The notes beneath the pieces are model-generated. The model made no database searches. It was not told the origin of the DNA and saw only the letters and a program-made list of their open reading frames with translations. 64,000 nucleotides of DNA from Olivibacter sp. SDN3. Its GTDB lineage: Bacteria; Bacteroidota; Bacteroidia; Sphingobacteriales; Sphingobacteriaceae. The stretch is taken from positions 4,526,001 through 4,590,000 of the forward strand of contig NZ_CP060497.1 in assembly GCF_014334135.1 (NCBI RefSeq). Reading direction: 5' to 3'. The translations under genes were made by a program, and so were the position numbers. Shown one piece after another: positions 11,566-18,133 of this stretch. Within the stretch, counting starts at the first letter, position 1, and each line of letters begins with the position of its first letter.

Positions 11566-14500
11566 CTATTTCTTCAAGAGCTCTTGTACAGCAGTTTCTA
11601 ATTGTGGATCGTTTCCTTTTAGAAAGTCTCCATATGGGAGTGGAGTCCTGATATCTGGTTCAACTTGTAAATTTTCTGTGGGGCGGTTTTCAGCACCAAT
11701 TGTACCTACCATGGGGATACCAAAAACCAACGTAGGATCGATCTGTGTTTCCCACCACACGGCTGTACCGGTACCCGGTACCGGCATACCTACTAATTTA
11801 CCAAGACCATTTTGTTTATATATATAAGGAAAAATAAATGCGTCACTGTAGTTCCCTTCGCTCATAACCACTATACTGGGTTTATTCCAGCGCGACATTG
11901 GTTCTCCGCCATTTAGGATTTCGCCCTGTGGAGCAAATTTCAGGTATTCTTTCCCACTTAAAAAAGTGTTTAAATCGTCGTGAAGCCACCCACCACCATT
12001 GAATCTTGTGTCAACCACCAGCGCTTCTTTATCTCTATTTTCTCCCATAACCTTGTCGTAAACCTCCCGAAAACTTGCGTCATTCATTCCCTCAACGTGT
12101 ACATAACCTAAGCGTCCGTCGCTTAGTTTATGTACATATTCTTTACGTCCCTTCACCCATCGCTTATACATTAATGCTATTTCCTCATTTAATGTAATAG
12201 GTTTTACGGTTTCGTTAAAAACTGTTCCTTGCGAATTCTTTCCTCTGATGTTTATATATTGCCCTTCTTTACGATTTAAGAATTTTGCCCAATCAATACT
12301 ATCCGCTATGATGTCTCCGTCAATTTCTTCTATAATGCTTCCAGCATCAATTTTTGATGACGCTTTGTCTAATGGGCCTCCCATGATCACTTCAGAAATT
12401 TTCAAGCCATGCCCACTAAAGGTTTCGTCGTATAACAAACCCAGTGCAGCGGTGATATCCGGATTATTATATTCAGGGGTGAACCTTCCTCCAGTATGCG
12501 AAGCATTCAGTTCCCCCAACAGTTCACTCAACAATTCCTGAAAATCAAAATTGTTATTAATATGTGGAAGAAAACGACGGTATATTTCATAGTATTCTTC
12601 CCAATCCAATCCATGTATAGTCGGATCGTAAAATTTCTTTTTTACTTGTAACCACGCATGATCGAAGATATAACTGCGTTCTGAAGCTGCATCCAGCATT
12701 ATTTCTCCTTTACTGCTTATCGGTGTAATTTTCCCGCCAGAGGCTTCTACTTTTACAATATTTCCACGGTTAGTAACGAATAAATTCTTTTCGTCGTCAC
12801 TAATAGCTATACCGCTGGGACTTCCTCCCAGTTTAGCTAGAATTTTTGTCTCTTTAGTACGAGGTTCTGTAACCCAGAGATCATATCCTTTCTCAAAAGC
12901 CGTTAAATAGTACAGTTTACTCCCGTCTTTTGTTAATACGTAATCACTTATGGACGAGCTATTGATAGTAAACCTAATCTCTCTCTCTTTTAAATTGTCG
13001 AGGTTCAAAAGAAGAGGTTCTTCGTCTTTTTTTTCCGTATCTTTCTTTTCTTTTTTCTTATCGTTCTCTTTGTCATCAGAACCTTCTTTTTCCTTTTCTT
13101 CTTTTTCTTTCACTAAGTTAAACTCGTCCTTACTTAACTTGAATTTATCATAGGCTTCTTGATCCACAAAAACACCGAATACATCTAACTCCCTACTTCC
13201 CTGAAAAGCCAACGATTTCCTACCATACTTGCTACTTAACCAAGTAATAAGCCTACCTTTCATCTGCCAGCGAGCACCGCTTTCACCAAAACCACTAAGT
13301 ATAGGATGCTGAATATCTCCCGAACCATCTGCTTTTATCAGCGCTGTATTACTCATGCTAAAATAACCACGTTGATCGTCTACCAATAACCATTTGCTAT
13401 CCGGACTCCACTCAAACCCCCAATCACCATCTGCATACGAATGATTATTTCCCTTGGGTAAAACTGTGATCGTTTTTTTACTTTCTATTTGGTACACTTT
13501 CAGTAGATTACGTTCTTCGATATAAGCAATGGATTTGCCATCGGGTGAAAATTTAGGAAGAAAATTATCGGTATTTCCAATAATGAGAGGCTCTTCTTTT
13601 AGTACAGTTGCATTAAAAAAATAACGTTCATTTTCATTTACAACAGTCGTTTGATAAATGCCCCACCCCTTGCGCTCACGTTCAGCTGCATAAATTAAAG
13701 ATTTACCATCTGGCGACCATTGTACCATTCGCTCCTGCCCTGCTGTGTTCGTGACCCTTTTGGTAAAATCTCCTTCAACGCTTGTAACAAATAACTCTCC
13801 CCTACTTACATAAGCAATCTGCTTGCCATCGGGGCTTAGCTTGAATTGATTGACTTGCCCATTGATTGGAGTGTTGGCCGTTACGTATTGTCCACCATCT
13901 GTATTAACATAAACGGTCAGCTTTTGTGGATCCTCTCCTTCCTTTAAGGTATAAATAGAGCCATCTTGACTGAAAGCCAACATGTTGTTTTTCGAAATAC
14001 TCAAATGCCGCACCGGATTGTTTGAAAAATTAGTCAACTGCTGATCAGCAATTTTTAATTTAACCCCTTTCTTGTATACATTTAACGTACCGTCTTTTTC
14101 ACTTAAGTAATACACATATTGACCGTCGTTGCTAAAAACCGGTTCACGGTGTTCGATTTCTTCATTTGTTAGCGGTTCATAAGACTTGTTGTTTAAATCG
14201 TATAACCAAATATCTCTTGTAACCGATGAAGTATGGTGCTTACGCCAAGGATCTTCGTATCCTTTTCGATCCTGAAATACAAGCTGACTCCCATCTTTGT
14301 TAAAGTGTGCATGTTCAACACCAGCGGCACTTATTAGCATTGGTCTGCCTCCAGTTATCTTCACACTGTATAAATTTTGGAAGAGACGGATACTGGGAAA
14401 TCTAATACTTTCGGCGGGCGCTTGACGAGCACTTCCAAAAACAACCTCATTATTATCAGGTGTAAAATCGTACGGATAGTCGTTAGCGCTATTGAACGTT

Positions 14501-14829
14501 AGTCGGACAGCTTTACCTCCAGTAGCTGGCATTACAAACACATCAAAATTACCGTATCTATTATTAGCGAACGCAATGAATTTCCCATCAGGGCTCCACA
14601 CAGGCATCATGCTATATGAATTGCCAATAGTAAGTGCTACCGCGTTTCCGCCTTTTGAATCGACGCGATACAAATTACCTTGATAACCAAAAACAATGGA
14701 GGTCCCATCTGGGGAGATAGCCGGGTATCTTAACCACAACGCCTCTGTTTGGGCTAGGCTATAAGAAGTTGCTGTAATTAATAAAAATACTGAAAGGAAT
14801 ACTTTTAGATTAGTTAATGTTTTTTTCAT
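11566..14829 (-). CDS. Tricorn-like protease (PD40 propellers, PDZ, S41 core)
   Basis: This exported 1087-residue protein has a signal peptide (ending near TSYSLAQ) and the tricorn layout. About residues 30-550 are PD40/WD40-like beta-propeller repeats (WSPDGKFIAFANN, FSPDGKSIAYIEE, WSPDGKSLIYAAE and others). A Lys/Glu/Asp-rich linker follows at about 570-610, then a second propeller part, a PDZ-like domain near 830-890 and a C-terminal S41 serine peptidase. The likely nucleophile is the Ser of EGNYSDAFIFP (about 995), with SHTGGRF and RPTENLQVEPD as further tricorn core motifs. It is expected to degrade peptides in the periplasm. It is flanked by unrelated genes. Confidence 0.92.
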   Translation of the reverse strand: MKKTLTNLKVFLSVFLLITATSYSLAQTEALWLRYPAISPDGTSIVFGYQGNLYRVDSKGGNAVALTIGNSYSMMPVWSPDGKFIAFANNRYGNFDVFVMPATGGKAVRLTFNSANDYPYDFTPDNNEVVFGSARQAPAESIRFPSIRLFQNLYSVKITGGRPMLISAAGVEHAHFNKDGSQLVFQDRKGYEDPWRKHHTSSVTRDIWLYDLNNKSYEPLTNEEIEHREPVFSNDGQYVYYLSEKDGTLNVYKKGVKLKIADQQLTNFSNNPVRHLSISKNNMLAFSQDGSIYTLKEGEDPQKLTVYVNTDGGQYVTANTPINGQVNQFKLSPDGKQIAYVSRGELFVTSVEGDFTKRVTNTAGQERMVQWSPDGKSLIYAAERERKGWGIYQTTVVNENERYFFNATVLKEEPLIIGNTDNFLPKFSPDGKSIAYIEERNLLKVYQIESKKTITVLPKGNNHSYADGDWGFEWSPDSKWLLVDDQRGYFSMSNTALIKADGSGDIQHPILSGFGESGARWQMKGRLITWLSSKYGRKSLAFQGSRELDVFGVFVDQEAYDKFKLSKDEFNLVKEKEEKEKEGSDDKENDKKKEKKDTEKKDEEPLLLNLDNLKEREIRFTINSSSISDYVLTKDGSKLYYLTAFEKGYDLWVTEPRTKETKILAKLGGSPSGIAISDDEKNLFVTNRGNIVKVEASGGKITPISSKGEIMLDAASERSYIFDHAWLQVKKKFYDPTIHGLDWEEYYEIYRRFLPHINNNFDFQELLSELLGELNASHTGGRFTPEYNNPDITAALGLLYDETFSGHGLKISEVIMGGPLDKASSKIDAGSIIEEIDGDIIADSIDWAKFLNRKEGQYINIRGKNSQGTVFNETVKPITLNEEIALMYKRWVKGRKEYVHKLSDGRLGYVHVEGMNDASFREVYDKVMGENRDKEALVVDTRFNGGGWLHDDLNTFLSGKEYLKFAPQGEILNGGEPMSRWNKPSIVVMSEGNYSDAFIFPYIYKQNGLGKLVGMPVPGTGTAVWWETQIDPTLVFGIPMVGTIGAENRPTENLQVEPDIRTPLPYGDFLKGNDPQLETAVQELLKK

Positions 14830-15830: not shown

Positions 15831-15859
15831 AAAAAAGCCCCCATATTTAGTATGAGGGC
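15831..15859 (-). terminator. Terminator after the anti-sigma/protease gene
   Basis: On the minus strand GCCCTCAT pairs with ATGGGGGC (one G-T pair) and a run of T follows. It lies 27 bp beyond the stop codon of the gene ending at 15886. Confidence 0.75.
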
Positions 15860-15885
15860 CTGCTAATATTATTATACAGAATCTA

Positions 15886-16983
15886 TTAATACACTTTGAC
15901 CATATAAATATAATCCTGCACTTTTTTTATTTGTTCTGTTCTCGATAAGTTCGATAAAGAATTTTTCTTATTAATCTGAATCTTCTTCTCCAAACTATCT
16001 TCAGGAATACTTTCAATAGCTTTCAAGACATAATCAGCTTTGATTGCAAACGCGGCGCCATCTGTTTCTGTTTGCTTACTGTTTATTACACCAATTATAT
16101 TACCTCTATTATCCAAAACCGGACCACCACTATTTCCTGGATTAACCGGAATTGACACCTGATAAGCTACTGTATCTCCGCTATATCCCGTATTGCTACT
16201 CAAATATCCCCTTCCATAGACGGCTTCTTCTCTGGGAAATCCAATCGTATATACATCTTCTCCTATATCCGTTGTGTGTTGCTTAAATGTATAAGGTAGA
16301 TGGCCTAAATCTTTGAACTCTTCATCAATAATTTGCAAAACAGCAATATCATAAGCGGGATCTGTAAAAACGACTTTTACTTTATAGGAATCACCGGTAT
16401 TATTCTGAATATAAACGGAATCAGCACCTTTGATTACGTGATAAGTAGTCATTATATAACCATTTGAAGATAGGGCGAAACCTGTTGCGCCATAATGGCT
16501 TGGCGTTGCTATACCTCCCTGATTTCTATTAATATCTTTAATCAACGCGTTCTGGGCTTTCACATTTTGACGGATATTATTCATATCGCGTCGTAAAGCG
16601 ATATATTGAGAAGCATCGTCTTTAGCATAAAAACCTGTAAGCCATAAAGTAGAGAATACTGCTAAAATCGCGACCGACGCGGCAACAAGGGAATTGATTT
16701 TATATTTATCCCATAAGCGAACAACCAACGTCTTCCTAGGCAGAGCATTTTCTATGATTGACTCTATATCTAAATTTGCATGAATATCATCTAGTTTATG
16801 CTGTAGATTAATTCGTCCACCATAAGTGTGTAATCCTTCCATAAACGCACGATGTTCGTTGAACTGATCACGGCGAGCCTGGTCTTTAGAAAGTAGATCC
16901 TCAAACCGCAAATTGTCCGAATCATTTAGATCACCTCTTAAATAGGCCTCCACTTGATTTAAAAATTCCTGATCACTTTTCAT
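15886..16983 (-). CDS. Membrane protein: anti-sigma-like domain, TM helix, DegP-like protease
   Basis: The 365-residue protein has three parts. Residues 1-90 are a soluble helical region laid out like the cytoplasmic part of Bacteroidetes anti-sigma factors (FLNQVEAYLRGDLNDSDNLRFEDLL). Residues 97-118 are one membrane helix. Residues 122-152 look coiled-coil, and 160-325 are a trypsin-like S1C (DegP/HtrA) domain with a complete triad: His182 (TTYHVIKG), Asp212 (DPAYDIAVL), Ser285 (NPGNSGGPV). No PDZ domain is present. It starts 12 bp after an ECF sigma factor gene on the same strand, so the two are almost surely cotranscribed. A role as membrane-bound partner of that sigma factor is inferred, not shown. 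Confidence 0.88.
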   Translation of the reverse strand: MKSDQEFLNQVEAYLRGDLNDSDNLRFEDLLSKDQARRDQFNEHRAFMEGLHTYGGRINLQHKLDDIHANLDIESIIENALPRKTLVVRLWDKYKINSLVAASVAILAVFSTLWLTGFYAKDDASQYIALRRDMNNIRQNVKAQNALIKDINRNQGGIATPSHYGATGFALSSNGYIMTTYHVIKGADSVYIQNNTGDSYKVKVVFTDPAYDIAVLQIIDEEFKDLGHLPYTFKQHTTDIGEDVYTIGFPREEAVYGRGYLSSNTGYSGDTVAYQVSIPVNPGNSGGPVLDNRGNIIGVINSKQTETDGAAFAIKADYVLKAIESIPEDSLEKKIQINKKNSLSNLSRTEQIKKVQDYIYMVKVY

Positions 16984-16995
16984 CTCTTTATTCCA

Positions 16996-17556
16996 TTAAC
17001 TAAAGAATAATTTTTTTAACCGTTGTAAACACTTATACTTTTGATTTTTTGCATTATCTGTATTTGTATAACCGAATTTCTCACAGATTTCCTGCATGCT
17101 CAAATTGTGAATATAAAAATCTTCAATAATTGTTTTACATGGTTCGCCTAGACGAACCAGGGCATTTTCCATCAACGTAAATTGCTGATCTTTTTCATGA
17201 TGTTTTTCTAAATCATCGTCTACTACCATTCGCTCTTCGTAATCCTTGATATTTGTAAAAACACCTTTTCTTGTAAGTTTTTTTAACCACAAATTCCTGC
17301 TCACGGAGTAAACATATGTTTTGAGCTTACTATTTAACTTAAAGTCCCCACAAGTCACTTTATCATACAATATAATGACTGCCTCCTGAAATACATCCTT
17401 CGCATCATCAATATCTCCACCGTTATTCAATATCATTCGCGTCACCACAGGGAAATTGATTTCATACAGTTTTTCAAGACTTCCTTTTTTCCCCTTAAGT
17501 ATTCCGGTTATTATATCGTTATCCTCAGATAGTGTATGTCTCTCTTCTTTACTCAC
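16996..17556 (-). CDS. ECF-type RNA polymerase sigma factor
   Basis: The 186-residue protein has sigma region 2 (DDAKDVFQEAVIILYDKV, about 44-61, with the -10 recognition segment) and region 4 (CKTIIEDFYIHNLSMQEICEKFGYTNTDNAKNQK, helix-turn-helix near the C terminus), the two-domain layout of ECF sigma factors. Its partner is probably the membrane anti-sigma/protease gene 12 bp downstream. A minus-strand TACTTTTG at about 17743-17750 could be its -7 element, leaving a long leader. Confidence 0.93.
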   Translation of the reverse strand: MSKEERHTLSEDNDIITGILKGKKGSLEKLYEINFPVVTRMILNNGGDIDDAKDVFQEAVIILYDKVTCGDFKLNSKLKTYVYSVSRNLWLKKLTRKGVFTNIKDYEERMVVDDDLEKHHEKDQQFTLMENALVRLGEPCKTIIEDFYIHNLSMQEICEKFGYTNTDNAKNQKYKCLQRLKKLFFS

Positions 17557-17947: not shown

Positions 17948-18133
17948 ATGAAAAATTTATTCAAATTCGGTTTTTTAGGCCTAGCTTTAGCTTTAACAGT
18001 AGCAGCATGTGATTCTAACACAGGAGAAAACACAGAAGAAGCTGCTGATACAACTACTATTATAACTCCTAGCGAACCAGATACTACAGTAATCGAGACT
18101 GATACTACTATTACTACCGATACTATAGGGTAG
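17948..18133 (+). CDS. Small acidic Thr-rich lipoprotein
   Basis: The 61-residue protein has a clear lipoprotein signal (MKNLFKFGFLGLALALTVAAC, Cys at residue 21) followed by only about 40 residues made largely of Thr, Asp, Glu, Ile and Pro (SEPDTTVIETDTTITTDT). Such a tail is probably disordered. It has its own terminator at 18165-18198. It is divergent from the sigma factor operon and may be a target of it, but no sequence evidence proves that. No family is recognised. Confidence 0.7.
   Translation: MKNLFKFGFLGLALALTVAACDSNTGENTEEAADTTTIITPSEPDTTVIETDTTITTDTIG

Follow-up and report, generated by a model that had tools for sequence, protein, structure and literature searches.

How is an ECF sigma factor held and released when the gene behind its own encodes an anti-sigma-like domain and a protease in a single chain? 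Anti-sigma factors are usually cut by separate DegS/RseP-type proteases. The question is raised by two adjoining genes in a 64,000-nucleotide stretch of DNA (the window) from the genome of Olivibacter sp. SDN3, a single contig of 6.1 Mb for which the nearest named relative found is Olivibacter domesticus (79% identity). An earlier note, made from the window's letters, had described a 365-residue protein encoded 12 bp after an ECF sigma ORF and had proposed that its protease acts on itself or on its neighbours to free the sigma factor. Both ORFs are as described there (Table 1): the sigma protein matches the sigma70-ECF profile (TIGR02937) and sigma-70 region 2, and the fusion is laid out as a helical cytoplasmic domain, a membrane helix, a neck, an HtrA-like trypsin domain and a conserved C-terminal strand.

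Table 1. Features of the sigma-fusion locus and its divergent neighbour (positions in the window)
Feature	Position	Strand	Details and basis
ECF sigma factor	16996..17556	-	186 aa, GTG start; Sigma70_r2 E 1.9e-6, TIGR02937 5.8e-21
Anti-sigma-like / membrane / trypsin-like protease fusion	15886..16983	-	365 aa; ORF, Pfam, homologues
Residues 1-84, helical cytoplasmic anti-sigma-like domain	16732..16983	-	AlphaFold2, profile scans
Residues 99-117, sole transmembrane helix	16633..16689	-	hydropathy scan
Residues 124-152, helical neck in the periplasm (low confidence)	16528..16614	-	AlphaFold2 model
Residues 166-325, HtrA-like (S1C) protease domain; His182, Asp212, Ser285	16009..16488	-	Pfam, conservation, Foldseek
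Residues 339-365, conserved C-terminal part	15889..15969	-	helix at 348-358 and strand at 359-364, both predicted
Sigma-operon promoter-like site, GGGTTACTATTTGCATATTGATGTATTAA	17560..17588	-	followed by the GTG start after 3 nt
Second site of this type, ahead of the divergent lipoprotein gene, GGGTTACCTTTTTACAAATGCGGTATAAA	17872..17900	+	pattern match
Small lipoprotein, predicted sigma target, MKNLFKFGFLGLALALTVAAC...	17948..18133	+	61 aa; no Pfam match

The fusion is a core gene of one bacterial family and is patchy elsewhere in the class. In a 300-genome sample of the order, all reported as one family (17 genera), it was matched in 299 genomes at E ≤ 1e-8 and in 298 at E ≤ 5e-86, coverage being known for only the better part of these matches; the two exceptions are G226, with an ordinary HtrA match alone, and G110, with no match. 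Outside the family, near-full-length homologues occur in 33 of the 285 genomes sampled from the class, spread over nine further families. Outside the class, a phylum-wide sample of 247 genomes, many of them the same as in the earlier samples, gave no full-length fusion at E ≤ 1e-55 and one protease-only match. A separate draw of 61 family genomes contained the fusion in 51 and lacked it in ten (G226, G794, G796, G800, G801, G803, G804, G806, G810 and G813), so that core here does not mean universal; these ten represent lineages that are scarce or absent in the 300-genome draw, and three of them are less than 90% complete.

The tie to the sigma gene is close to absolute. From 154 loci first scored as full-length, one was removed as a different architecture (L111), and merging those identical over their last 300 residues left 141 distinct fusion loci. 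Counting as paired any locus with a sigma gene upstream on the same strand and first starts within 250 bases, a sigma gene adjoins the fusion gene in 139 of the 141, the other two (L015 and L070) stopping at contig ends; the ECF neighbour gene expected of a class I anti-sigma factor is thus present, and the co-occurrence on which the earlier note had staked its reading holds. One paired locus, L026, carries a sigma ORF shortened to 135 aa (896-1303) while its fusion gene is intact. The protease with its C-terminal tail is also found behind other N-termini, in 26 loci of what are here termed Bacteroidota tail proteases (L098-L121, L123 and L124), and none of these shows a sigma gene, with 889-2443 bases of upstream sequence in 24 loci and 189 and 338 in L115 and L123. 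Therefore, the pairing tracks the anti-sigma-like N-terminus and not the protease.

What is usually a switch of several proteins seems in this family to be united in one membrane protein, the gene of which stays next to that of its sigma factor. A recognised class I partner is found close to few of the Bacteroidota ECF sigma factors (just 6% of Bacteroidetes ECFs have such a domain, ASDI, in their vicinity according to the excerpted text of PMC7406223), and for a core sigma factor of one family the present locus offers candidates for partner, promoter and target together. The same source describes the domains fused to class I anti-sigma factors as conserved within groups (PMC7406223, coevolution paper; excerpted text), and the word trypsin occurs 0 times in its main text. 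ECF sigma genes have also been placed beside caspase systems whose variable part is perhaps trypsin-like, an architecture that, as far as the excerpted text goes, differs from that of the fusion (PMC8195603). The titles and abstract openings of the literature found, a coverage to which the 2021 ECF reclassification does not belong, hold no description of the fusion, and an earlier description of the group is possible.

The membrane and periplasmic parts of the fusion largely agree with the earlier description. Its one membrane helix is the single hydrophobic segment (residues 99-117), and a 19-residue stretch of mean hydropathy above 1.6 is found in 138 of the 141 homologues, with a second such stretch in none; an excess of Lys and Arg on the N-terminal (inner) side of this helix is seen in just 97/141. 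The neck, described as coiled-coil-like, is indeed helical in an AlphaFold2 model of the joined sigma-fusion chain (helix 315-343), but with low confidence (pLDDT 42-65 across its 10-residue blocks). The protease domain is matched by Trypsin_2 over residues 166-299 (E 4.5e-25), and its triad is complete, with His182, Asp212 and Ser285 invariant in 141/141 distinct homologues; the triad is therefore no chance motif, and catalysis is under selection. By sequence, the best solved relatives are MucD/DegP proteases, and the best fold match of the protease model by E-value in Foldseek is DegS without its PDZ. The fusion thus shares with the HtrA/Deg (S1C) proteases a Trypsin_2 domain, an invariant triad and a fold nearest DegS, but in place of their one or more C-terminal PDZ domains, none of which the Pfam scan of the window's protein lists, it has a C-terminal helix and strand, and it additionally carries an anti-sigma-like cytoplasmic N-terminus. 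HtrA/Deg proteases form trimers; the fusion was modelled as a single chain.

This helix and strand are modelled by AlphaFold2 with high confidence, and the segment Y-I-Y-x-V-K-V-Y within them is well conserved across the 141 homologues. The tail was considered as a mimic of the C-terminus of outer-membrane proteins and rejected in that role: it is also the C-terminus of the other tail proteases and in many cases extends beyond the aromatic residue, and it is therefore read as a structural strand. Many of the tail proteases, which have the protease domain and tail in common with the fusion and differ from it in their N-termini, begin by eye with a signal-peptide-like stretch; of six that were scanned, two (L102 and L106) contain MORN repeats, and the other four have no domain reaching its cut-off ahead of the protease.

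On balance, we favour the reading that the fusion and its sigma factor constitute a self-contained envelope-signalling unit, in which the protease starts its own destruction and an M50 protease of the RseP type finishes it. Acting as a class I anti-sigma domain without zinc, residues 1-84 would tether the co-encoded sigma factor to the cytoplasmic side of the membrane; they are joined by the membrane helix and the predicted helical neck to the PDZ-less HtrA-like protease in the periplasm. Upon an envelope signal, the fused protease would make the first cut, in the neck of its own or of a neighbouring chain; the earlier note had proposed that it acts on itself or on its neighbours, and the invariant triad is compatible with such an action. 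The second cut would fall to the M50 protease, for which the SDN3 genome has one match, and the freed sigma factor would recognise sites of the form GGGTTAC-N15-GTATTAA, turning on its own operon, probably as a leaderless transcript, together with very few other genes, foremost one for a lipoprotein of 54-93 residues. DegS-RseA-RseP, which controls sigmaE in E. coli through stress-induced cleavage in two steps (background, with the excerpted text of PMC8103513), can be regarded as a functional analogue: a membrane anti-sigma domain and an autoregulated ECF sigma factor would be common to the two, as would an HtrA-type periplasmic protease as presumed first cutter and an M50 protease for the second cut, whereas here the anti-sigma-like domain and the protease are one chain, the PDZ is missing and the regulon is seemingly very small. 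If the fusion does cut itself, regulated proteolysis would be reduced to a single sensor-protease-inhibitor chain, one that could be dissected by a single change at Ser285 and used as a compact engineered switch.

The strongest alternative to self-cleavage is a sensing role for the protease in place of a cutting one. The fusion would then still be an anti-sigma factor, with its protease domain serving as a sensor or envelope effector and not as the site-1 protease, and the sigma factor would be freed either because substrate binding reshapes the fusion or because a separate protease cuts the neck. We hold this to be somewhat unlikely. It gains weight from the 26 tail-protease loci, where protease and tail follow other, secreted-looking N-termini and no sigma gene was seen, as the protease would therefore have an independent periplasmic role. 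A separate cutter is harder to find: besides the fusion, a Trypsin_2 search of the SDN3 genome turned up a PDZ-bearing protein as its one full match and two incomplete matches below the cut-off, and thus no second, DegS-like protease was seen in it. The invariance of the triad also argues for cutting, though a role in quality control would explain it too.

Both self-cleavage and sensing presuppose that the N-terminal domain binds the sigma factor. Class I anti-sigma factors bind sigma2 and sigma4 through a domain of three to four helices, and AlphaFold2 places helices at residues 5-16, 21-33, 35-69 and 73-80 of the fusion. This domain is the most variable part of the protein, its standouts being Tyr14 (132/141), Phe27 (137/141) and His44 (124/141). 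The earlier note's view of residues 1-90 as anti-sigma-like is only partly borne out, in some homologues and not in the window's own copy: among the 44 of 141 N-termini scanned singly against Pfam and NCBIfam, the commonest Pfam family was zf-HC2 (13/44, best E 2.6e-4) and the commonest NCBIfam family the 'anti-sigma factor' NF052375 (10/44, best E 1.9e-4), with 'putative anti-sigmaE protein' matched by three and many other families matched once or twice at similar E-values, whereas residues 1-84 of the window's protein had no anti-sigma match in either collection at E ≤ 0.1, the full-length protein reaching NF052375 at E 0.16. No anti-sigma protein was among the 60 PDB matches listed for a profile of the 44 N-termini. 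HxxxCxxC, which we take to be the zinc motif of anti-sigma domains, occurs in 0/141 homologues. The domain thus weakly resembles a zinc-free class I anti-sigma domain. The class I factors (zf-HC2, RskA, RsiW, ChrR and others), which share with the fusion a short helical N-terminal domain encoded near an ECF gene, a single membrane helix and diverse further domains, and from which it differs in the missing zinc motif and in having an intact serine protease as the fused part, are likely the family to which this N-terminus belongs.

Joint folds were predicted from loci in which the sigma and fusion genes lie in the same frame, the stop being read as glycine. The joined chain of 556 residues gave a pLDDT of 87.2 and a pTM of 0.54, and the sigma factor with residues 1-84 gave 85.7 and 0.78 in a single fold, a pTM that suggests a defined arrangement. 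The structure prediction called for in the earlier note is thus fairly confident in itself, and its likeness to known complexes is loose: Foldseek matched the sigma factor of the joint model to chains of AlgU-MucA, SigW-RsiW and sigmaE-RseA at an rmsd of 12-16, with sigma factors of open transcription complexes also among its matches. Going by the model, sigma binding by residues 1-84 is plausible. Mean-field covariation between the sigma factor and the domain, computed over 136 of the 139 pairs (L026, L067 and L078 left out), placed sigma 182 with domain 14 and sigma 61 with domain 68 at the top, above five pair-shuffles; in a control including the periplasmic domain, however, couplings to that domain arose at nearly equal density. 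Since the periplasmic domain should not touch the sigma factor, covariation was rejected as proof of contact and dropped as evidence.

That control, together with the weak match to anti-sigma models and the promoter-like site of the sigma gene's own in 139 of 139 loci, is what a second rival can point to, namely that the N-terminal domain is no inhibitor and that the sigma factor merely transcribes a co-transcribed membrane protease, the activity of which would be set by transcription alone. This is very unlikely in view of the near-absolute adjacency of the two genes, the membrane topology and the prevalence of zf-HC2 and anti-sigma families among the matches, and it would give no reason for the finding that, across the loci read, a sigma gene adjoins no proteases but those with this N-terminus.

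The promoter-like site, and with it the lipoprotein target, is new here, absent from the earlier note. Upstream of the sigma gene, GGTTAC is present in all 139 loci, mostly as GGGTTAC, and is followed by GTAT after 15 nt in 109 loci, 16 nt in 15 and 22 nt in one; GTAT is absent from the remaining 14, where variants such as GAAT stand instead. The fuller pattern is present in 130 loci, and in 92 of them the -10 element is followed after 2-3 nt by a GTG start (77 and 15), so that the transcript probably starts at the start codon and, judging from sequence, is probably leaderless; among the mRNAs examined in F. psychrophilum, 5.5% are leaderless (PMC9723704, excerpted text). The window contains two matches to GGTTAC-N13-17-GTATNAA against 0.06 expected, the pattern having been drawn up after both sites were seen. 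Across the 61 family genomes, 113 strict sites were found, compared with 13 for the reversed pattern; 112 fall in the 51 genomes with the fusion, each of which has at least one (30 have two, eight one, eight three and five four), and a single site falls in one of the ten without it. That nine of the ten fusion-less genomes also lack a strict site suggests loss or absence of the whole circuit. This co-occurrence is what points to recognition of the GGTTAC-type site by the co-encoded sigma factor. That GGGTTAC might belong to another regulator and precede both genes by chance is hardly credible, since, for all that the link between sigma factor and site is a sequence pattern only, the sites follow gene presence (51/51 against 1/10) and two per genome is the commonest count (30/51).

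What the second site would control is mostly a small lipoprotein. Upstream sequence of 400 bases or more is available for 128 loci, of which 64 have a site 17-48 nt before a divergent gene for a lipoprotein of 54-93 aa, and this layout was not seen in the other 64. The window's lipoprotein and its relatives begin with a signal peptide that is conserved (MKNLFKFGFL..) and continue in a tail of low complexity, rich in A, T, S, D and V. A surface-export signal was looked for and rejected, as K-x-[DE][DE], which we take to be its pattern, occurs in only 18/64.

Twenty site-bearing stretches from the genome scan, a subset of the extra sites, were examined, two of which (L237 and L240) are the sigma locus itself. 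Of the 18 stretches away from sigma, nine have a site leading to a small lipoprotein (L227-L234 and L236); L227-L234 are the eight genomes with all other strict sites away from sigma, and all lead to this lipoprotein type. Four others precede larger genes and make these possible further members of the regulon: L238, with a DUF4294 gene (E 2.7e-50), is resembled by eye by L239, and L241, with a DUF4349 gene (E 2.1e-17), by L246, in which the site is 309 nt away. No plausible target follows the remaining five (L235, L245 and, in the SDN3 genome, L242-L244). In eight of the 51 fusion-bearing genomes the strict site is single, so that a second target is not visible there. A large regulon is rejected for now: looser promoter patterns gave 5 matches against 4 for the reversed pattern and 6 against 4 in the SDN3 genome, the three matches of the first pattern outside the locus (L242-L244) precede no lipoprotein, and among the sites read there (L192 and L193 left out) plausible targets follow only the two at the locus itself. 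Circumstantially, the genome sequences argue strongly that the sigma factor serves very few genes, that of the lipoprotein first among them.

The preferred reading, with the fusion as sensor, inhibitor and first cutter, can be extended to a closed loop in which lock and opener are one protein and the sigma factor's main product, the lipoprotein, is itself the signal. The lipoprotein is short, apparently disordered and rich in A, T, S, D and V; its tail would be an easy substrate for the fused protease, and lipoprotein stalled in the inner membrane or piled up in the periplasm would act on it, either by occupying the protease, with the system off, or by triggering self-cleavage, with the system on. 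We consider this extension unlikely as it stands; if true, an entire bacterial family would use the circuit to sense how lipoproteins move across its envelope.

Some further observations concern single loci. In L232, three sites of the GGGTTAC type stand one after another, and the two lipoprotein genes there are nearly identical. In the window, a hairpin followed by T's is visible by eye just past the fusion gene (~15831-15860, minus strand) and is likely the terminator of the two-gene operon, and positions 11566-14829 of the same strand encode a 1087-aa protein that by eye has the look of a tricorn-type protease.
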